Shown one piece after another: positions 19,709-34,658 of a DNA stretch of 64,000 nt; the first letter of the stretch is position 1, and every line of letters starts with the position of its first letter. A program made the position numbers and the translations under genes. The stretch is from Brachionus manjavacas (lineage: Eukaryota > Rotifera > Eurotatoria > Ploima > Brachionidae), in assembly GCA_019054805.1 (NCBI GenBank), contig JAHQIY010000001.1:6834501-6898500 (forward strand), in the 5' to 3' direction. The notes beneath the pieces are model-generated. The model saw nothing but the letters and a program-made list of their open reading frames with translations. It was not told the DNA's origin and did no database searches.

Positions 19709-20074
19709 TTTCACCTCAAGAGATTGCAGCAGCTAGCGGGCCCCAGGAGAGTGGGCTCGACAAACGCAAAGCTCTACCAGAGAGCACAGTCGGCATCGTG
19801 AAGAGGTACAGGTTACGTTGGGCTGGACATGTAAGATGGTATTGAGACAACCGATGGGCAAAGAAAGTGCTTTTCAGTGATCTCGTTGGTGGAAAACAGG
19901 GGCGTGGCAGGCCGAGGCTGGAGTGGATCAACTGCCTCGAAAGTGATTTGTAAAGGGCAGGAATTAAAAAAGGCCAGTGAACAACGTTGGCAATAGATAG
20001 GACCGTGTGGCGCGACGCAATCTCGTTCCTAACTTCGACTTCCAAGAAATAGGACCCTTATTTTTATTATTTTC
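19709..20074 (+). mobile_element. 5'-truncated LINE fragment with perfect 20-bp target-site duplication
   Basis: The insert is flanked by exact copies of aaacaatcttaggaaactgt at 19689-19708 and 20075-20094. It is markedly G+C-rich and on the plus strand reads the extreme C-terminus of a LINE ORF: RYRLRWAGHV, then GKQGRGRPRLEW, a CLESDL block and a final DRTVWRDAISF. LRWAGHV, GRPRLRW and W-D---DR--WR are diagnostic of this type. A few stops (for example in the arginine-rich link) show it is dead. It ends in a TTATTTTTATTATTTT tail. Only about 370 bp of 3' sequence was inserted. Confidence 0.9.
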
Positions 20075-20094
20075 AAACAATCTTAGGAAACTGT

Positions 20095-20880
20095 ACAAGC
20101 TAATTTAAAAAAATATCGTTTAATTTAAATCTGTAATAAAAAATATAAAATACTAAATAAACTCAAGTTTCAGTTTGCAAGTTTGTATTCAGATCGTCTA
20201 TACATAAATTTGTATTTTGAATGAATGGAAAATTAATGTAAAAATTTAAAAAAAAACGCAAACACAGAGAAAGTACAGTTTTAATTGTTTTTATTCAATT
20301 AAATCAATCTACAAATCTTAATTTTTTTAACAACCACTTTTATGTATCAATATTTTTTTTACATTATAGCCTCTTAGAGCAAAAAAATTTTGTTTATCCA
20401 AAGAGGACCATATGGTCCATGTTTAAATTACATTATTTCAAATAAATTCTGGTAAGAACAAAAAATCCTGCCAGTACTATTTCAAAATTTATTTTCTGTC
20501 TTTATGGAATATCAAAAAATTATGAGGTTAAGAGTTAAACATAGCATGTTCCATTATAATGCAATTTTTTTGATATTTTTTTATCTTTATCTAAATTTTT
20601 TTAAAAAAGAAAAAATATTTTTATTTTTATTTCATAACGCCGATCAACTCTTGATATAATTTTGTTATTTTAATGTAAAAAAACATTGATACTTCAATCC
20701 AAATTTCCAATTAAAAAACCTTTCATTAAAATAACCTCAAGTGGTCAGAATGCTTATTCCATCCTTATTTTATTTAGAAGTTATTTCTATCTATTAAATA
20801 TCTAAATAATTCCAAAAATGCGAAATTGAAATCAGTTCGCATTTATTTTTTGTTTGATCATTTTGGTTCTTTGGGAAATG
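20095..20880. other. A+T-rich intergenic stretch
   Basis: No gene or repeat supported. Confidence 0.45.
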
Positions 20881-21384
20881 GACATAATCTCGTAAAAAAA
20901 AAATCTCGAAAGGTAAATATTTCGAAAAGTTAATAAGTCTTTATTCTCGAATGAATAAATAATGTCCAAAAAATTATCTTAAAAATAGTTTCATCAATTA
21001 ATATTTAGTGCTTCAGCATCTCATTAATGAATAAATCAAATCGATTCTTTTCATTTATATTTTTTGTTTGTTTTGGTGACTGTCTTGCTAAAGTTTGACC
21101 ACCTATAACTTGAATTATTACTTCCATTTTACTTTGCTCCAGTCTAAATAAATCAACAATCTTGTTGGTGTCAACGTTATTGTTGGTTCTTTATTATTAA
21201 ATCTAAAAAAAGTTAATTTTCCTGTTAATAGTTTGGACTAATTGTGATTAGATATTTTTGTCGAAATTTTTCAAATAATAATATTCGATGTTTAACTCGT
21301 CAAGATTTTTGACTTTCGAGATTTTATTTTCGACGATTATTCTTTTTTTTAGCTTTTGAGATTTTTACCTTTTGAGATTATGTC
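20881..21384. mobile_element. ~0.5 kb non-autonomous inverted-repeat element (MITE-like)
   Basis: The left end gacataatctcgtaaaa and the right end (reverse complement gacataatctcaaaagg) are inverted copies. Both arms carry direct repeats of an ATCTCGAAAGGTAAA-like word (left: aaatctcgaaaggtaaat, tttcgaaaag; right, complemented: ATCTCAAAAGGTAAAAATC, ATCTCGAAAGTCAAAAATC). There is no coding capacity. Ends and target duplication are not certain. Confidence 0.6.
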
Positions 21385-22200
21385 ACACGTACGGTTCTTT
21401 GACTATATTGAGAAAATCCTTGGACATAATGAGTTGCCATACTTAACACCAGCAGTTTAACTTTAACTTTTAAACAACTCTGATATAAGATAACTAATAT
21501 TAAAACGCTTATCGATCGTGAAGATGAATGGCAACTAAAAATTTACATTTCGATCATCGATCGGATTTTTTAGACATTTAAATTAAATTGTTAAAAATAA
21601 AATAAAAAATTTCAATTAAATTAAAAAAATCACTTCTTCTTAGTCGATCATATGGAAAAATAATTACTTCTAACTCGTTGAGATATAGGCAATTAAAATA
21701 TTTAGAAGTCAATATCCTTTCTGTACTTTTTGTTCTTTTTCTAATTAATTTATTTGGCCCTGTTCCTTTTTGTCCTTTTTCTTAATGGTAATTAAAAAAA
21801 AATTTTAATTAATCAATATTTTAAATATCAATTTTAACTTGATCTCATTGTCTATCCCCGAACTCGTTGCTTTCTTTAAAACTTGATTTTCTTTCTTCAT
21901 AATAAATTAATATATTAATAATTAATATAATAACAATCGAAAATTCAATTTTTTTTAAATTGACACTTTTTGCTCAAAATATATTGACTGTTGTTAAAAA
22001 TTTGTTTTGGCTCTTTATTTTATTATTTATCAGATTTTTAATTTTTAAAATATTGAATCTTTAAGAATTAAGATTGTGATTTTCTTTTCTCTTTTTTTTA
22101 TTAAAAAAATATTTCAAATATTCAAAAAGACAAGATATTGTTTTTATTGTCATAATCGAATAACAATGATCTCATATAAATATAATTCCTCATATAAAGC
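21385..22200. other. A+T-rich stretch before the outer transposon genes
   Basis: No gene supported. The 5' exon of the outer transposase (zinc-ribbon part) and the left terminal repeat were expected here but not recognised; ctccagtct near 21129 is only a weak resemblance to the inner element's terminus. Confidence 0.4.
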
Positions 22201-22205
22201 GTATT

Positions 22206-23940
22206 TTGAGCAAGTATAAAACTGATGATCTTTTTGACTATAATGGTGATAGAAATCCAGAAGAAATAAGAGATATCTACGACGGTCGTCTATATCAAAA
22301 TTTTGTATCAAAAGTTAAGACAAATTTTTTATTAAGAGGTCAGTATTTTACCCTTACGCTTAATTCAGATGGAATAAAATTAAGTGATAAAAGCAATATG
22401 TCCATCTGGCCAGTTATTTTAATTATAAATGAACTTCCATTAGAAACCAGAATTCTTATTGAAAATACGATAATTGCAGGTATGTTCTAAATAAAAAATT
22501 CTTACATAAAACCATAAATTTTTTTTAGGAGTTATTCTGAGTGATGGCACGCCAAACTTAGATATTGTTCTTAAAATTGTCCAAAAACAATTAGTTAATC
22601 TGGAAAACGGAATAAAATTAAATGATTCATATTACACCAAGTTTTTTTTAATAGCAAGTGTTTTTGACAAACCAGCTAGATCTAAAGCAACTAATACGGT
22701 GAGTTCAATCGGATTTTATAGTTGTCTCAGAAGCACTCAAAAGGGAGAAACATTTTATACTCAAAGTAAATACAAACTGTCATTTAATAAATAATATATT
22801 TTCTAATTTTTTTAGGTGGACATTTTCATATTTTTCCATTAATTTAGTTTAATCCTTTTGGTCCACTAAGGAATGAATTAAGCTATGAACATGATCTTTT
22901 TTCAGCCAAAAATAAAAGACTAGCGGTATATGGAATCAAAAAAGAATCTTCATTATCAGATCTAAAATACTTTCATCCAATTTTGAGTGTAAATGTTGAC
23001 AGTATGCATAGTGTTTATCATGGCATAATAAAGGAGTTTTTCAGATATTGGTTTGAGAAGCCATCAGAATTATCAAGTATTCACAAAAAGCAAATTAATG
23101 TGTTGAATAGTAGGCTTATGAGTATTCGCCCTCCTAGTTACGTGCCTTCAGCTCCGCGCCCTTTACACGAATATCATAATTGGAAAGCTCATGAATTCAT
23201 GATTTTTATTTTTTACTATGCGCCAATTATCTTTTATCAAATAATGCCTAATGAGTATTATAATAATTTAATTTGTTTATCTATTATATTCCAGAAGTTA
23301 TTTTCAAAAGTCATTTTAAAAACTGATATTATCATATGTAAAAATTTTGTAGTTTATTTTTAGGTCAAGTTGAAAAACTTTACAGTAAGTCAATTTTTAA
23401 ATCATCGTTTCATGAGCTTCTTCATTTTTCAGATCTTACTTTAGATTTCGGTCCATTAAATGTAACATGTTACTTTCAATATGAAGAAATAAATAGGAAA
23501 ATTATCAATTTAATACATGGCTTTGATTTAGTTTGTGAAGAATTTATCCAAAAATTTTCTATCATACAAATATTCTCTGCCTTAAAAGTCAATTTATTAG
23601 AAGAAAAGTTAAGTAAAGATATTAATGAAAACTTGTTATTTTTTATTTCCAAATATTTTAGTTAAAAATCATTTAATTCGATAGTAAATTGTTCTAATGG
23701 CCTAGAAATTAAAGAACCTTTTAAAGTTTGTGATAATAAATTGATTTCAAATAGAATACGAGCTAAATATGTTTTCATTAATTTAAATGAGGTCGGTTCT
23801 ATCTATTTTAATAAAAGTTTGTATACAACAGTTCAAAAAGAAACAAGATTTAATGATTCAGCAATTAAAAATAAATCAGGAAAATACGGTCTCATTGAAA
23901 ATATTTTTCTTTTAGATAATAATAAAGCAATTTTATTTTG
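22206..23940 (+). pseudogene. TNP2/CACTA-like transposase relic (outer nested copy)
   Basis: Exons 22206-22479, 22529-~22763 and ~22816-23940 parallel the minus-strand transposase at 26-29.5 kb block by block: LTLNSDGIKLSDKSNMSIWP against LINTDGISLSEKSSLCIWP; FDKPARSKATNTVSSIGFYS against FDKPARASVLNVVNSYGYYG (the D-x-PAR...N...G-Y-G block of the TNP2/CACTA-like superfamily); LKYFHPILSVNVDSMHSVY against LKYFHPLLNTNIDGMHSIF; and FHELLHFSDLTLDFGPLN. The intron after IIAG is in the same place as in the inner copy. In-frame stops at 22845-22847 (TAG) and 23663-23665 (TAA) and a frame change near 23360 show it is dead. The zinc-ribbon exon is missing. Family assignment rests on these blocks by eye. 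Confidence 0.75.
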
Positions 23941-24077
23941 AAGGAAATTAATTTTTCTTTCTAACCCTTTTTTTAATAAAGATTTTCCAAATTTTAGGTT
24001 GGATCTTTTTCTGAGCAAAGTAACAGATAATTTTTTTTTGAAGAAGTTGAAAATGTCTCAAAAGTTTTTTTTTATCA

Positions 24078-24096
24078 CCCAGTCGATTGAATTTTC
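24078..24096 (+). repeat. Left terminal inverted repeat of the inner element
   Basis: cccagtcgattgaattttc; matches the complemented right end at about 16 of 19 positions allowing one shift. Preceded by CA. Confidence 0.6.
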
Positions 24097-24478
24097 ATGC
24101 AACGTGTATGTACAGGTTCCAATTACAGACCTGCAACATTTCTGAGAAATTAAGAATTTTTTATCTGTGACATGCTTGGAATTTTTTTAAATTCGAATCT
24201 GTTACATTTCTGTAAAATTTTCAGAACTCATCAAAATATCAATCATTTTTTTTATTGAATAAAAAAATTAAATTTTCAATTGAAAATATTTATTTAAAAG
24301 TAATATTATATATGTTTAATAAAATTTAACTATTTAATGGTACAATTATAAAAAGTATTATTATTATGGTACAATTTAAATTTTAAAAAGAAAACAATAA
24401 AAAACCAACAAATCATCGTATTCCATAACATAATTTGGTATTAACATTCATATTAATTTAGTTAATTTTCATGATTAT

Positions 24479-26040
24479 TCAAGACTCTTCATCTGTAGAA
24501 GTGCAGAACTCTTCTTCTCTGTCACTCGGTTTAATAATTGGCAAACCTTGTAGAGAACTTGGTACTGATCCATTTTTATCTTTGACACTATATCCTATTG
24601 TTTTATTTTCACTCTTTATTGGTTCTATCGAAAAGCCAAGCTTTTTCATTTCTCTCCGAGCTTCACATGCGAGTTGAGAAATAAGCTTTCTAATAATATC
24701 AAATTTAAAGTCAGTATTGATTTTTTTTATATATTCTTTAAAAAAAATTATTAGCTCATTAAAAAATTCTAAATAAAAATTACCATAACAAGCATGAATT
24801 TCATTTGAATATAGTTCAAACATTCTATCCACCGTTGAACCAGCCCATATCACAGGGTCTGTAATCAAATTGCTGATTACTTTGCGAAAGCACTCAGATG
24901 CTGACTTTGAATTCTCAATAAGACTATCAAGCTGAATCTTTAGTTCATTTGAAATTGAAACATTTTTGTAATTGGAAGAAAGAATATGAATATTATTTTT
25001 TTGTTCAGATGAGTAAAAACCAATTTGACATATTTCTTCGAATGAAGAAAATGATTTTAAAAAATTAATACTTAATTCTTTAATCTTGATTAATTTTTTA
25101 TCATCTTTATTATAAAAATTATTTATTAATATATTAAATTTTAATAGATTGATTTAAATAAAAGAATTACCAAATGTGTTTCTCAAAGCCTCAATAGTTG
25201 CTTTCATTTCTTTAAGTTCAATTATTAGATCATGATTTTTGGACTTTTCATTTTTAAGAGCCTCATCTGTTTCTTTCAATCTGGATTCTAGAAATTTATT
25301 TTTCTGTTTCACAATCAATATATCTTGTGATTGATTAGAACTATGTGAATGCTGGTCTTGACAATGATTTTTTTTTATTTTAATAGATTTTAAATCCTCT
25401 AAATTGTATGAACGTAAAACTTTTAATTGTTTTTCACAATCTGATTTTGTACCTATTAGGAAGTAAAGTTAAAAAAACAGTATTAATTTTAAATATCCTA
25501 TAACCTATTAGTTTTACACTAGCTTTTAAAAAACTGCTTCCATATTTGATATCATAAATATTTCCTTCATTGATGTTACTGATGTTATTTATCTTAATTT
25601 TTTTAACGTCAACAATATCAAACATTCTTTCAGTCTCCCATTGGATAAGTGCAAATTTATCAGCAAAATTTGTGTCCGATAATTTTTGGACGGTAATAGA
25701 AGAGCTGACTTGATTTTTACATCCATTTTTAAAATTATTGTCTATTTTTGTTTTCTTTTGAACTAAGCATTAAACATTTTTCACTCTCTTCTATAAAATA
25801 AATTAAAATTAAATTATTTATTTACAAAATAATTTGATTACCTTTTCCCTCAGAGCATAAACTGCTAGAAAGGCTGCGGCTTTTAGCTGAACTTGAGCTA
25901 AGTTCAGATTCTGACAAAAACAGTTTTTTTTTTTCTTTTTTTAAATATTTTTTTTTTCTTGAATTTGTTTTTGACAGAACACTTATAAAATGTTTAAAAA
26001 GGATTTCTTCTTTAATATGTTTCTATGGAATAATTCATAG
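24479..26040 (-). CDS. BEN-like transposon accessory protein (inner copy)
   Basis: Minus-strand exons trace one protein. About 25740-25530 reads FADKFALIQWETERMFDIV then a GNIYDIKYGSSFLKASVKLIG block, an FALV-x-W/G-x-hydrophobic module often seen N-terminal in BEN-domain proteins. 25440-25170 is acidic/Lys-rich coiled coil. 25140-24479 contains a BEN-like helical domain (LIENSKSASECFRKVISNLI, then DRMFELYSNEIHACYGNFY) and ends in an acidic CTSTDEES tail. Small introns separate the exons and the exact start is not settled. BEN domains bind DNA and recruit chromatin regulators. The decayed homolog at 29906-31137 shows the same modules in order. Role in transposition or silencing is inference. 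Confidence 0.6.
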
Positions 26041-26171
26041 ATTTTAACATAAAATTGATAGCTAATAAAACAAAAATATTTTATTAAATATATAAAATCT
26101 ATTGAATTAATAAAAATAAATTTTAGATTAAAAAAATTAAAAAAAAATTGATTATTATTTTTTGATCGTTT

Positions 26172-29100
26172 CTATAAAAATAAATGACTATTTTGAAAAA
26201 AATTTATGAAAGCTAGATACTCGTCAATTTTTACAAATATAATTTTTTCTACATTTTCTAATTTGCTAATTAAATAATTGTTGCCAAGTCTACAAATAAA
26301 TGTTTTTGCCTTAATATCTTGATAATTAATATTATAAAAAGGGTTATGTAATAAAATTATTTCTCTGCAAAATAAATAAATCCGATTTTCGAAATTAACT
26401 ATATTATTTATTAGACTATATCGCTTTGTTACTTTATCAAATATAGCACTATCGCAAAAACGACCATTAAACGAAACATCAGTAAAACATCGATTAGAAA
26501 AATGTACACTTTTAAAACAAATGAAATCTAAAATATCTTGGTCTAGTTCTATTTTATAAATTTGAAAGGTGATTATTTTTAAAATAATAACTTGAACGTC
26601 CCATTTGAACGATTCCATTATGTATTAGATTCTTTTTGTTGTTTGAGGTTTTTAGACCTGCTTTTTCATTAATGAATACACTAAAAGCTGAATTACAATT
26701 TCCTTTGATTACTGGCTTACTAGATATTTCTTGCCAAACGCTGAAAATTTTAATAAACTCTTCGCCAATTAAATTTTTGCCTTTGACAATTCTTGTTATT
26801 TTCCTATTTAGTTCCTCAAATTGGTAACAGTTTGTTGCATTAATCGGACCGAACTGAAGAGTACATTCAACTAGATGCAAGAGTTCATGGAAACCTGACT
26901 TGAGAATTAAAGGATCATACAAAGCTGATAATTGACTAACAAAATCAAATATTACTAATCTTGCTTTGAGTAATTGAGGTTTTGAAATTTTGATGTCAAA
27001 GATTATTTCCAGAAATATAACAAATAATACAAGATTATTTAGATATTCTATTTTCATTATTTTACTAAATACAATCAATGAATAATTTAAAATTAAATTC
27101 ACAAATTCGCTTGCACGCCATAAACGCCAATCATTTATTGATCTAGGTGGACTTTTAAAATGACTTGGTGGTCTTATTTTTGAGAGTCGCTGTTGTATCA
27201 ATACCATCTTATTTTTCAAAGAATATTCTTTATCACATGTAGAATCAAACCAATATGTAAATAAAGATTTGACGACTCCAAGAAAAATTGAATGCATTCC
27301 ATCAATGTTTGTATTCAATAAAGGATGAAAATATTTTAACCCATCGAATGCACAGGGACCTTTAATTCCATTATGTTTGATAGTGTTTTCTAAGCTAAAA
27401 AGCAAGTCACGCTTGTAGCTTAAAGCATCCCGCTTTGGACCATCAGGATTATTTTGAATAAATGGATATGTTTGTTTTGAACTTTCTAAATTTAAATTTT
27501 AGTAAATAGTCTGTAGGACATAATACATAATTCAATAAAAGAAAAAAAAAATTTTTTAATAATTAACAGTTATCAATCTTTAAATTTGTATTCTTTTATG
27601 TTCTTATCTTACCGATATTCTATTGAGACTGGCAAAAAATATTAAAAAAATTGCCTTCTTTTATTATCTACTTAAAGTTTATAAGGTGTATAAATTTTTG
27701 TAACTAATAGTGTAAAATAAATAAAATTTAAAAAAAACAAATTTTTTTTATACAATTAATTTTAAAATTCAAATTTAAATTGATTTCTATATATACTAAT
27801 AAATTTCCTTTTATTTAAAATTTTTTTCTTAAAATTATAAGTTATAAGTTAAATAAATATCTTGTTGAACTTAACGACTTAAAAAAAATTTTATTGAGCA
27901 GATATTAATGAAACAATAATGATTTTGGAATTTTTCTAAAAAATTAGTATCTAATGTATTCACTTACTTTGGTTAATTTTAATTCTCTCGCCTCTTTGCA
28001 AACATTTAATACAACCATAGTAACCATATGAATTAACGACATTTAAGACGGACGCTCTCGCAGGTTTATCAAAAACAGCAGCAATTAAAAAAAACTTGTA
28101 ATAATTATAATTTTCGTTCCCAAAATTGATTCCGCACTCAAGTCTTAACAGTTCTTGATTTATCGAACTTAGCAGATAACTTAGATTAGGATTTCCAAAG
28201 GAAACAATTAAACCTTAAATAAAATTATTTTGAGTCGTCAAAGAAAAAGAGTTTAAAAGAAAAATTAATTAAAAAGTAAAGATGATGTTTTTTTATTATT
28301 TTTTTTTTAAATTTAAATTTCTAGTGAATTTTTCAACCTTCTTTTATTTATTTAAATTTTTCAATTTTTTTTTTAATTTGAAGGGGTATTAGCTCGATAC
28401 AGATAAACTTATAGAAAAAAAATAAAGTTTACCTGCAACAATCACATTTTCAAGACAAAATCGTTTATTCAAGGGGACTTCATTTAGAGTTAAAAAAACT
28501 GGCCAGATACAAAGAGATGACTTTTCAGATAAACTAATTCCATCCGTATTAATTAAAAAAGTAAAGAAGTCTTCACGTTCATTTTTTAAAATATTTTGGT
28601 AAATGTTCCCATCTATGATATCTTCTATAAAATCATTTTCTGATGTGTTATTTTTGTGGTCAAATAAATTATTTGCATTGAAAATGTTTCTTAATTGATC
28701 CTCAATATCTAGTTGATAATCCATTTGTAATCTAAAATATATTTTTTTAAATTCTAAATTAAAATTAGATCAATTTAAATAAAGTTTAATTTCAAATGAT
28801 TCAAATTTTGTAACAAAAGAAAATAAAGTAAAAAAAAAATACATACTTTAGCCCACATATGTTACATTGGTTTCTTAGTCTGTTATTAACATCATTAAAA
28901 ATTTTGTCACAACATTTACATACCCATCGCTTAACAAACTTTGAATTATTTAATTGTACTCCAGTATTCCTAAAACAGTTGTCAAAATTGTTAGGAATGT
29001 TGATGGCTAAACTTCGAGAATTATGAAAAATTTCTAGAAATTCACATAATAGTTTAAAAGAATGTTGAGTTAATCCTGCATTATAATAGAGGATCAAAAG

Positions 29101-29523
29101 AGCTAAATTAAATGTTTGGTCCTCGCTATTTTGATTTGAACAATCCATCTCATATGTTTCATTTGTGTTTCCACAAGTCGAATCTAAACGATTTGTGTGT
29201 AAGGGTGAATCGGAAATCAAAGACTCGTTATCGCTAAACGCTTGATCAAACAAATTCTCTGGGAAAATCTCACTTTTTGGAGAGTCTTTTATTTTTAATG
29301 AACAATTTTTTCTTTTTTTAAGCCTTCTTCTTGATGTTTTAGGCACTTTAACTCCAGATTCTCGTAAATATCGATATTTTCTAAAATAGACCATCTAAAA
29401 TAAATTTAAAAAAAATGCCTCAAAAATATTGATTCAAAATTATAAGGACAAAAAATTATTTTTTCTTACTGAATATAAATTCAAATTTGATTCATCACTT
29501 AAAAAAGATTTAAGTTTACTCAT
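26172..29523 (-). CDS. TNP2/CACTA-like transposase (inner copy)
   Basis: Minus-strand exons 29523-29470, 29394-28847, 28731-28433, ~28216-27970 and ~27490-26172. It begins MSKLKSFLSDESNLN, then a basic stretch, a long acidic linker and a zinc ribbon (WVCKCCDKIF ... CNICGLK). Next comes INTDGISLSEKS...WPV, then FDKPARASVLNVVNSYGYYG followed by CIKC, then LKYFHPLLNTNIDGMHSIF and FHELLHLVECTLQFGP, all typical of animal TNP2-like transposases; the DGMH Asp is a likely catalytic residue. The last ~150 residues lie in a second frame overlapping near 26560-26618, so one frameshift or an unrecognised intron is present. Otherwise largely open, hence younger than the outer copy. Confidence 0.7.
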
Positions 29524-29770
29524 TTTTGCTTACTTCTCTTTTTCAGTATTTGCAGGGAATCTGTTATTTTGTTAATCCTTTTAACTAATTGAATTTTTGA
29601 AAAAAAAGAAGGAGCAAAGATATTCAGTGATTTTTTTGATAAAAAAAGGTGGAGCTTGTTTTTAGATTTCTGAATTGTATAAATTATTGGATATTTTTTT
29701 CAACTCATAAAAATTACAGACAAAAATTTCTGCTACATGTAAGTATCAGTCTGTATTACGCATGAGACAG

Positions 29771-29789
29771 AAAATTTGAATAGACTGGG
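29771..29789 (-). repeat. Right terminal inverted repeat of the inner element
   Basis: aaaatttgaatagactggg, complement of the left end with few changes; followed by CA at 29790-29791. Confidence 0.6.
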
Positions 29790-29905
29790 CAGTTAGATAA
29801 ATATACCTCGTTTCTTTTTACATTTAAAATCAATCATCTTTTTAATTAATATAGATATTTAGATTATACTATTAAATAACTGGAAGTGGAAAAATTTTTA
29901 AAAAA

Positions 29906-31137
29906 TTGATATTAAAAATGAATTTAGTTTTTCGAACAAAAATTCCTATTTCTAAAACACAGTTAAACAAAACTAATTTGGTAAATTGTTCTCAAGAAAA
30001 ATCAATCTTAATTCCTGAAAATATTCAGACTAGTTCTGCTAATACATCCTCAGAGACAAACACATCAAAACAACATCTATTTTTAAAAAGAAATCAAACG
30101 TATAAATTATCGACAAAGAAAAACAAATCCAAGAATGACCAAAAATTAACAACTAATTTTAATTCAATGACAGAGTCAAAATTGGATAATTCTCACAGCA
30201 AACATTTTTTAAAATCAAAAAATCAAATGGCTTTACTTCAAAACAAAAAAAAATTCTTTTTAGTACAATGGCTAATTTATAAAGAGTTTTCTGTTTTAAC
30301 TGAAAATAGCATAGTCGAAGGTTCTCTCGACTTAGATCTCGAATTAGGTGCAGTAACGACTTACAATTTGGAAAAGATGTGCTTAAGGCAGAACTTAAAA
30401 TGATTGACAATGAAATTGAATGTAAAAATCAGCTCAAAATTCTCACCGACTGTGAGATTTGTCCCGATAAAAAAAGAAAATAAAATTCTGAATATGATTT
30501 AAAAGAAATTATCAGTAAAAATATCTCTGAAGAGGATGCTAAAGGAGTTGAACACTATAAAAAGAGGACTGCGGAACTCGAAGCTTTTTTATCCAAAAAA
30601 GACGAACAAATCAATTAACTAAGCAAAAAATTGGAAAAAAATGAAAGAAAATTTCAAGCTTTTATGAATTCATTTGGTTATTTTTTTTGTTTAATAATTA
30701 ATTAATTTTTAATTTATTTATGATGAACAAAATTTCAAAATACGTATCACTTAAATACTTAGAGACTTTTTGGGAATTTAAAAACTCTGGAAAATCTCGA
30801 ATAATTTAATGAAGAAGATGACCAAATGGTTGGAATATTGTCTCCCAGCTATCCAAAAGTCGTAGTTAACAGTAGAATAAAAAACGAAATAACTTTGATG
30901 CTCAAAAATCCAAAACAATCAAGTTCAAGTGCATTTAGAAGATTGATTGGAAATTTAATAACTGAAACAAATCAATTGTCAGCTAGAAATGGAAAATCAA
31001 TGATAGACTTAGGTGAAGAAATTAATGCAGTTTTCGGTATTTTAATATTTAATAATCATTTCCTTTTTAAATTTTTTATCTTTTTATTTAAGATTTTATC
31101 AGTACAAAACGCGAAGATTTTAGTTGTAAATCATTAA
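29906..31137 (+). pseudogene. Decayed BEN-like accessory gene (outer nested copy)
   Basis: Plus-strand frames reproduce the inner BEN-like protein in order: a Ser/Thr/Lys-rich N-terminus (29915-30230), KKFFLVQWLIYKEFSVL (compare DKFALIQWETERMFDIV), then after a frame change VLKAELKMIDNEIECKNQLK (compare FLKASVKLIGTKSDCEKQLK), a coiled coil, and 30826-31040 NPKQSSSSAFRRLIGNLI with GKSMIDLGEEINAVFG (the BEN-like block). Frame breaks near 30365 and stops near 30481 and 30617 mark decay. A last piece at about 31265-31439 (RVHATAQRTAYIPSDVFI..., ending SSSDTDE) resembles the inner protein's acidic tail, but that is weak. Same strand and order as the outer transposase at 22.2-23.9 kb. Confidence 0.65.
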
Positions 31138-31584
31138 TAAGGCAAATATGCAATAGGAGTAGTGAAATGAAGTAAATTATTTAATAAAGTTTAAAATACT
31201 TTATTAATTCTAAAAAGAAATATATGAGGAAAAATCCAATCCCTCCAATAAATAAATATACAATATAAATATGAAATACGCGTGCATGCAACTGCACAGC
31301 GAACCGCGTACATACCCAGTGATGTCTTCATCACAAGTAGGAGAGATGAAAAAAGAAACAACACGTTTAAGTCAATACACCAACATGATACATCAAATTC
31401 GGAGGAACAATCTCTTAGCTCAAGTGACACTGACGAATAAAGTTGTATCAAAAAAGCTATTCTTTGTTTATGTTTGTTAAATTTTCTTTATTTTTTTACT
31501 TTTACCCTTTATATATAATTTTTATACTATTACTTTAAATTCACTTTTGTATCGTCATTTTCAGTTTATTTTATTATAAGTATT

Positions 31585-31629
31585 TTCAGTTTTGTTTGTA
31601 TTTAACCGTTAAATACAAACAAAACTGAA
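31585..31629. repeat. Perfect 45-nt palindrome with 1-nt centre
   Basis: Arms of 22 bp (starting ttcagttttgtttgta, ending complementary) surround a single C at 31607. It is followed by gaactgaa-type short repeats and a second palindrome. Confidence 0.9.
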
Positions 31630-31659
31630 GATTGAAGAACTGAAGAACTGAAGAACTGA

Positions 31660-31690
31660 AGATTTGCCAGTTAGGCTAACTGGCAAATCT
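31660..31690. repeat. Perfect 31-nt palindrome with 1-nt centre
   Basis: Arm agatttgccagttag, centre G at 31675, then its exact complement. It lies 30 bp after the previous palindrome. Confidence 0.9.
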
Positions 31691-31868
31691 AGTCAAAAAT
31701 ATGTTTTTTTCTTTAGTTATAATTAAAAATTTAATTAAACAATTGTAAAAATTTATAAATTATATATTTTTGTTGTAAATTTTAAAATTTTGAAATAAAA
31801 AACTTTTTTATTTTTCTGATCCTAATCAATATTTAAATAAATAATGAAAAATAATTAATATTTTTTCA

Positions 31869-32000
31869 ATGAAATAAAGAAAATTTCAACGATTACTTTA
31901 GATGAAATAAAGTGAATTTCAACGATTACTTTAGATGAAATAAAGTGAATTTCATCGATTATTTTGGATGAAATAAAGTAAATTTCATCGATTTTTAACT
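31869..32000. repeat. Four tandem 33-bp repeats
   Basis: Units start atgaaataaag and contain aatttca(a/t)cgatta, at 31869, 31902, 31935 and 31968, with rising divergence to the right. Further aatttcatcgatta echoes continue to about 32040, followed by gactggg at 32052-32058, the same 7-mer as the inner transposon's right terminus. They may be subterminal repeats of the outer transposon. Confidence 0.8.
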
Positions 32001-34658
32001 CATTAATGATTCATCTATCAATTTTCATCGATTAATCATCGTTTTTTCTGTGACTGGGTATCTAATATAATATTAAACTATTAATAAATTTTTCTCAAAT
32101 TTAAGCTATTTAAAGACGAAAGTTTATTTCAGAATCATTAAATTATTTTTGAATATATATGTTTGAAAATATTTCTTTTTAAAAAAGTTTAAAACTTAAA
32201 ATGAATGTCAGGTTTTTTTTATTTCTGCTTTTGATTAACTATCTGGATTCAACAATGGACATTTTTTATCCTTTTGGAAGCGAAATTGGGGATGATGTAA
32301 TGTTTAAAAATGACGATGAATTTTTGGGTCCATTTGATATAGCCATTGAATTTCCATTTTTTAACAAGAGCTTCTCTTCGCTTTATATCAATACCAACGG
32401 TTTGATTTCTTTTAACAATGGCATAAGGTCCTTTACTCCAATGCCATTTCCACTATATAACGTGATCGGTGTTGCACCGTTTTGGAATGATATTGATACC
32501 AGAAATGGAGGGGATATTTTCTATCGGCCAATTACTGACTTAAACACATTAAATAAAATAGGTTCTGATATAAGAAGCTCATTTAATGCTTTTAACAACT
32601 TCAGGCCATCGTGGGCTTTGATTGTTACATGGTTCCAAGTCGCTCAATTTTCACGATCCAGAAACTTTCCAAACAATACATTTCAGGCATTAATTTCAAC
32701 AAATGGAAGGCATTCGTTTACAATTTTTAACTACCATAAACTAGAATGGTCTAGATCAGAAAATATCGATGAACATGCTCAGGCCGGTTTCAATGCTGGC
32801 AATGGAATCGTCTACTATGCTTTAAATAGATCATTTACGCCTCAAATAAAAAATATTGTATTTGAGTCAAATGTAAACAAACCAGGTAGATGGATATTTA
32901 GAATCGATGACCAGTCGATAGAAGAAGGTGGTTGTAATACTCAAGGTTATATTACTCTTAGTCCTTTTGTGCTCTATTTTATAGGTGGTGAAGAAGTTTT
33001 AGTTACTGGGCCATGTTTTAATATTAGCCAAGATGTGGCCAAAATAAATATTGATTCATATGACGAAATTGAATGTCAAATATTAGACTCAAATAGTTGC
33101 AAATTTAGAACACCTTTATTTAAAAAAATTGGAAGAGTGCCTTTGATTCTAAGATTAAATGATAACCAAACATTTCATGCAAATATTTACTCTAAAGATG
33201 AATCAATACAATCTAAGATAAATGGTCTAAGGTCTTACTTTTTTAAGACAAATGAGTCAAATGAGCAATTGAACTTGGAATGGCACAGTGACAAAAAAAA
33301 TCAGCTTTATGATTTGTATGTTATTAGAATTTTAGAAAACGAAACTATAACAGTAAAATTAATTCAATCCAATCTAGAACAAAATTTTACTTCATTCAAG
33401 TCATCTCTGTTGTTTTTTGACAACTCATTAAACATAATTGAAAATTGTTATTTGGCTATTGGAATTAAACAAACCATTAATCAACGAGTTGAATTAAAAA
33501 ATTATTTATTTATCTACAGTTTTTTTGTTTTAAACAAAAATTTGGTTGAAAACAGAAATCAAAGAATAAGCTTTTTTTTTTGACTCGTATTGTGAAAATT
33601 GGGCCTATAATCAACCAGATCCGACACCATATTTGGAAGGATTACCTCCATGCTGGCCAGCTCTCCCATCAGCTGTCAATGTTCCTGAATCGTTTGGTGA
33701 TTTCATTCAAGATAAAGCATGTAATCCGTCCAGACCGCAAGGATGTCATTCTTTCCATCCTGGTTCCAATGTGTGCTATAGATCCCAGTCAAGTTTCACA
33801 CTTAATTCGTTTACAGGTGGACAACAGTGCTGTTATGACAACCAAAACAATTTATTAGTTGGACCACCGGGTGGCGGTACTCTTGACATGGCGCATACGG
33901 ACGAAAAACCAATATCACACTTTTTTTTGGATGTTGCCCCATATTTTTTCTGCTGCAAATTTTCGGATAATTGCGATAAATATTATGAAAAAAGACCGTC
34001 AGATGATGGTAGTCGTTGGACACCACCTTCTCCTGGAGGCGGGTCAGGTGATCCCCATTACACCACTTTCGATGGAGTAGAATACACATTCAATGGACTT
34101 GGCGAGTACACATTTTTTGAAATAAGTGAAATTAATTTCACTTGTCAAGTAAGATCTTCGACTTTAAAATTGAATAATTCAACCGAATCAGAGGGTACTG
34201 TTTTCAGAGCGATTGCAATTAGAGGAGACTCTAACACAGATTCAATTCAAATAGAGCTCGATTTGGCAAATAATGTTTTGATTTATATAAATGGAATTGT
34301 GGTTGATTTCACAAGTGAATATATAAATTTAAATCAATTGACTCTCAAATTAAATAGTGCAACTGATATTGAGTTAGCATATTAGCAAGGAATAAATTTT
34401 CAGATTTTATTGACACCTAAAAAAAACGCCTTTCTTATTTTTAGTTCTGTTGATTTTAAATTTAAAAACAAAACTCGCGGTTTATTAGGAAATTTTAATG
34501 AAATGCAAAGTGATGATTTTAGATTGCCTGATGGAACTGTTCTCAATTTGAATAAAAATAACGATAGAGACTTATTTGAAAATTTTGGACAAAAATGGTT
34601 AGTAAATAGTGAGTCAAGTGTATTTACTTATCAGCAAGGTTTCCAACACAGTAACTAT

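Follow-up and report, generated by a model that had tools for sequence, protein, structure and literature searches.

Nested TRC-type transposons in the rotifer Brachionus manjavacas pair a transposase with a conserved second gene of possible BEN fold

We analyzed a 64-kb stretch of the Brachionus manjavacas genome (G000:C1:6834501-6898500; GC content 26%), hereafter the window, in which two transposase genes and two copies of a second gene lie in the order transposase (+), second gene (-), transposase (-), second gene (+). An earlier note, made from the letters of this DNA, had read this order as one element inserted into another, each with a transposase followed by a "BEN-like" gene on one strand, and the reading frames agree with both the overall order and the order within each element. 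The two-gene element has linked genes, defined termini and mobile copies, is nested, and is conserved across families. On balance, we favor the explanation that a newer TRC element (an animal CACTA/En-Spm-type cut-and-paste transposon) has inserted into an older one, within its transposase gene, and that two proteins serve each element. The genes and ends are as follows:

22170..24077 (+): decayed transposase of the outer element, whose final coding piece seems by eye to continue from ~29792, past the insert
24076..24077: CA, left copy of the 2-bp target-site duplication
24078..29789 (genes on -): inner TRC/CACTA-type element, delimited by identical ends in copies elsewhere and a paralogous empty site
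24078..24091 (+): terminal inverted repeat CCCAGTCGATTGAA, on the gene-3' side
24479..25769 (-): second (BEN-like) gene of the inner element, which may start in an additional frame at 25822-26022
25434-25769, 25154-25468 and 24479-25153 (-): its N-terminal small domain, coiled-coil-like frame and C-terminal helical domain
24736..24783 (-): 48-bp GT-AG intron proposed to interrupt the C-terminal domain, with derived coordinates
26172..29394 (-): inner transposase gene, retaining DGMHS and CYQFEELNR; exon borders are approximate, taken from frames
28801-29394, 28389-28769, 27960-28214, 26554-27498 and 26172-26624 (-): its exon-sized open frames
29776..29789 (-): terminal inverted repeat CCCAGTCTATTCAA, as read on the minus strand
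29790..29791: CA, right copy of the target-site duplication
29876..31440 (+): outer decayed second (BEN-like) gene

The inner element was inserted into the end of the outer transposase gene, duplicating CA. When the flanks are joined with a single CA, they align across the junction to a paralogous empty site on another contig (L026, on C3) at 323 of 408 positions (79%), which establishes the nesting of the minus pair inside a plus element and supplies the empty site that the earlier note had suggested looking for. The outer pair is the one with stops, as had been observed (in-frame TAA at 23663 and TGA at 23939).

The inner element runs from CCCAGTC at 24078 to GACTGGG at 29783-29789, words that each occur twice on the plus strand of the window against 0.35 expected. 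The inverted repeats had been placed at 24078 and 29789, around exactly the minus pair, and the same bases recur as ends in copies elsewhere. The window was compared by BLAST with ten loci (L015-L024) taken around genome matches. Both ends are retained by L015 (C12), in which the second gene is accompanied by a partial transposase, 26866-27001 and 27632-29426 being absent, and by L016 (C10) and L017 (C2); L018 and L019 (both on C23) are without the left end, L020 and L021 are remnants, L022 has a transposase match alone, L023 matches over 78 bp and L024 not at all. No second complete copy was found among these ten. The junctions are base-exact at both ends in L015, L016 and L017 and at the right end in L018, L019 and L021, and the right-end pattern occurs seven times genome-wide, including the window (reversed control, 0). 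A perfect 2-bp duplication flanks two of the four two-ended copies (CA/CA in the window, AA/AA in L016), the other two having a one-base mismatch (CA/TA in L015, TT/TC in L017); a 3-bp duplication was rejected on comparison of the junctions. An internal deletion from 25435 to 28312 is common to four copies (C10, C2 and the two on C23), so one deleted form has multiplied, presumably in trans. The two C23 copies lie ~14 kb apart on opposite strands and share their flanks, which suggests one local inverted duplication and not two separate insertions.

The two transposases are homologous, as had been claimed, with exons 38% identical, and their assignment to the TNP2 type is supported through relatives. 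Two of these, L052 and L046, exceed the Pfam Transposase_21 cut-off (40.8 and 35.9 bits vs 28.6), and a genome-wide scan placed two sites above it. The window copies, homologues of these positive relatives by genome search, themselves gave E 0.034 for one outer frame and no match for the inner frames. Such transposases have a D, D, E triad at recognizable motifs; the second D (DxMH/DxKH) and the E ((F/Y)ExxN) are present in all ten loci checked, and the first D, in a [TS]DG stretch, is visible by eye in eight (not in L023 or L048). The following features of animal TRC elements are found here: a Transposase_21 domain, a terminal inverted repeat starting with CCC, a 2-bp duplication and the catalytic D/D/E. 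The transposase segment of L052 had no relatives in phage records, nor in viral contigs searched with exact peptide patterns.

The genome (114 Mb, 61 contigs) was searched with three second-gene exons and two transposase segments (E up to 0.01), queries drawn from linked loci and hence biased towards linked matches. Scoring of the best candidates gave at least 56 second-gene loci and at least 44 transposase loci. At 23 of the 44 transposase loci a same-strand second-gene match follows within 8 kb downstream, against a chance expectation of 0.09, so that chance pairing is rejected and the co-occurrence that the earlier note proposed to check is found. The spacing is 428-2093 bp in 22 pairs and 6669 bp in the outer pair of the window, the latter because of the nested insert. 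The second gene is never upstream (0 cases), and the opposite-strand pairs are the two created by nesting. Two loci picked as apparently partnerless transposases (L050 and L052) both turned out to carry a second gene. Because order, strand and sequence are kept across many diverged families, the second gene probably has a function in the element. Its open frame starts 30 (L044) and 80 (L052) bases past the end of the transposase frame, with a larger gap, or no start found, at the other loci; by analogy with clone B4 of the Schistosoma element SmTRC1, a transcript shared by both genes is possible.

The two second genes of the window are homologous to each other, as had been noted: an exon of the inner one retrieves the outer one at E 9.4e-5, with 29% identity. 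Other members are 17-33% identical to the inner gene, and the proposed GT-AG intron is at the same position in eight of the nine sequences compared, no junction being recognized in L048. The coiled-coil stretch was judged by inspection. Sequence comparison indicates constraint on the second gene between families. Among nine comparisons, in which some exon ends include intron-encoded codons, the ratio of nonsynonymous to synonymous substitution rates (dN/dS) was 0.23 for its C-terminal exons in L050/L052 (0.15 for the transposase of this pair) and 0.34 for inner/L051, at high dS. Close pairs with few changes gave 0.31-0.72 for three second-gene comparisons and 1.06 for one transposase segment, and saturated dS in two of the nine gave no ratio. 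One relative, L051:2180-3412 (C6:4290671), has open exons and no transposase frame within the 6 kb read, making it a candidate domesticated gene on sequence grounds. Another, at C3:8758462-8759001, has a stop-free open frame of 281 codons and no transposase match within 8 kb.

The remaining features belong to the outer element:

31163..31335: dispersed repeat of ~173 bp inside the outer second gene
31869..31993 (+): 33-bp subterminal repeat, 3.8 copies; the unit contains GATGAAAT and ATTTCAWC
32052..32058 (+): GACTGGG, where the outer element probably ends on the right

The probable right end sits just past the 33-bp array, so that the right limit of the extent first proposed for the pair (22206..31440) probably moves to 32058. 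The left end and first exon were searched for and not found. The dispersed repeat, present in many copies across the genome, interrupts the outer second gene and holds nearly all of the at least 51 genome matches listed. An Rfam search of 20000-34000 in the window gave no match. In other families, GACTGGG is the right boundary in the L043/L049 and L044/L047 pairs (not in L045/L023), and no convincing pair of left and right ends was found among ten loci searched. The expectation that both genes lie between ccCAGTC termini holds for the inner element and for L015, with its partial transposase. The outer element and the families of L043 and L044 have repeat arrays beside their second-gene ends, some made of palindrome-like TTCTTTAAAGA; in the inner element short words alone are enriched (ATTTCTG, 4 vs 0.19 expected).

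Plant En/Spm elements, which encode the transposase TnpD and a second protein, TnpA, likewise have repeats inside their ends, and this suggests how the two proteins might act. The Transposase_21-type transposase would cut at the CCCAGTC ends; the second protein would oligomerize through its coiled coil and, as TnpA does, would bind the subterminal repeats through its C-terminal domain. It would help in end assembly or regulate the element's promoter, like TnpA for En/Spm, and deleted copies would move in trans.

Several points weigh against this explanation. Unpaired loci number 21 for the transposase and 33 of 56 for the second gene, four of the latter being deleted copies of the inner element. 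None of eight spliced second-gene members matches the Pfam BEN family (PF10523) at E up to 10, whereas a control BEND5 segment matches at 9.3e-18, and profile-profile comparisons of the second protein with the BEN genes of this genome and, separately, with a BEND5 segment gave no match. With no BEN match in any transposon copy scanned, the BEN identity given to the accessory gene has so far failed the profile check, an outcome that the earlier note had itself named as speaking against it.

These negatives, together with the weakness of the structural match, could suggest a conserved accessory gene of TRC elements whose product ends in a helical domain unrelated to BEN, serving in DNA binding or oligomerization, an alternative we rate only somewhat below an even chance. 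However, the best structural match of the predicted C-terminal model is a BEN domain, over 58 residues, and the apparent order of strand, strand and helices, with a putative coiled coil, resembles that described for BEN proteins. Furthermore, in the profile test the BEN genes of this genome join BEND3 (95.9%) but not the BEND5 segment (0.7%), so its failure means little. On the predicted model, a BEN fold of the C-terminal domain is possible. Other searches added little: the second protein, including its N-terminal small domain, had no meaningful Pfam match of any kind, and PDB sequence searches with second-gene alignments gave nothing meaningful (best E 0.058 and 0.021, an RNase MRP/P subunit). 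No BEN protein was among the best 50 of 264 viral structure-search matches, an absence that carries no weight. The top Foldseek match, the archaeal protein UBP (E 1.0), led nowhere, and a poor single-sequence model of an L052 exon (pLDDT 46) was set aside. Separately, a multi-copy gene on C6, C2 and C9 (L056:3130-3768, L057:2272-2910 and L058:2527-3162) exceeds the Pfam BEN cut-off, and at all three loci an opposite-strand frame ~1.6 kb off has, by eye, a Tc1-type helix-turn-helix; this is possibly a second type of transposon carrying a BEN gene.

The second protein could instead counter host silencing rather than share in cutting and joining, as modeled by VANC, the anti-silencing protein of plant VANDAL elements. 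We consider this unlikely, although no result here separates the two roles; chromatin-related functions predominate among human BEN proteins (PMC11472053), and TnpA is described as reactivating a methylated promoter (PMC1636069). That host genes merely lie near transposases, or that two unrelated mobile genes meet by accident, would fit the unpaired second-gene loci but is highly improbable given the 23 pairs in constant order and strand, and is refuted for the inner element by the presence of both genes, or parts of them, within the same termini in the window and the C12 copy.

Returning to the two-protein explanation, it yields a testable model for animal TRC transposition and raises the possibility that BEN-type chromatin proteins have a link to transposons. 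Its most far-reaching form, that TRC transposons themselves encode a DNA-binding protein of BEN fold, an animal counterpart of TnpA, that stand-alone genes (e.g., L051) are domesticated, and that part of the animal BEN-solo repertoire is transposon-derived, is unlikely.

Plant CACTA elements in the strict sense have CACTA/CACTG termini and a 3-bp duplication, unlike the CCCAGTC and 2 bp found here, and the element falls outside that group. The resemblance to En/Spm lies in a short second protein encoded beside the transposase, DNA binding being established for En/Spm and putative here; unlike the En/Spm protein, ours has no meaningful Pfam match. BEN domains have two N-terminal strands and a five-helix bundle, and their last helix binds specific DNA sequences. 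Like BEN proteins (BANP, NACC1, BEND3, BEND5/6, Insensitive), the second protein may have a coiled coil before a C-terminal domain of two strands and then helices, but it lacks a Pfam BEN sequence match and its gene belongs to a transposon. A literature search, mostly without full texts, retrieved no paper describing a BEN gene in a CACTA/EnSpm-type transposon, no second gene conserved over many TRC families and no BEN-like identity for one; the accessible part of one paper mentions BEN domain and CACTA in unrelated places, BEN in the reference list alone (PMC5704228).

The closest known systems are SmTRC1 of Schistosoma mansoni and the Aedes and Tribolium TRCs, placed in the animal CACTA superfamily (DeMarco, 2006; PMC1636069). 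Our element resembles them in its Transposase_21 domain, a terminal inverted repeat starting with CCC (Aedes, CCCAGTCAAC), a 2-bp duplication (a 2-bp repeat at 7 of 14 SmTRC1 copies), truncated copies and two tandem genes. The tandem open reading frames share one transcript in SmTRC1 clone B4. The earlier note regarded a chromatin-type DNA-binding accessory gene as non-standard for an animal TNP2/CACTA element; a tandem second open reading frame, with no domain assigned to it, is in print for Schistosoma (PMC1636069). Outside Transposase_21, the SmTRC1 proteins, including the second-frame products PrA/PrA2, are described there as not detectably conserved. By that description our second gene is set apart, being conserved over many families and perhaps BEN-like, and it adds a second part of the element to the transposase domain whose conservation was reported. 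Thus, TRC elements with a tandem second frame are already known, and the cross-family conservation of the second gene and its putative BEN-like identity may be new.
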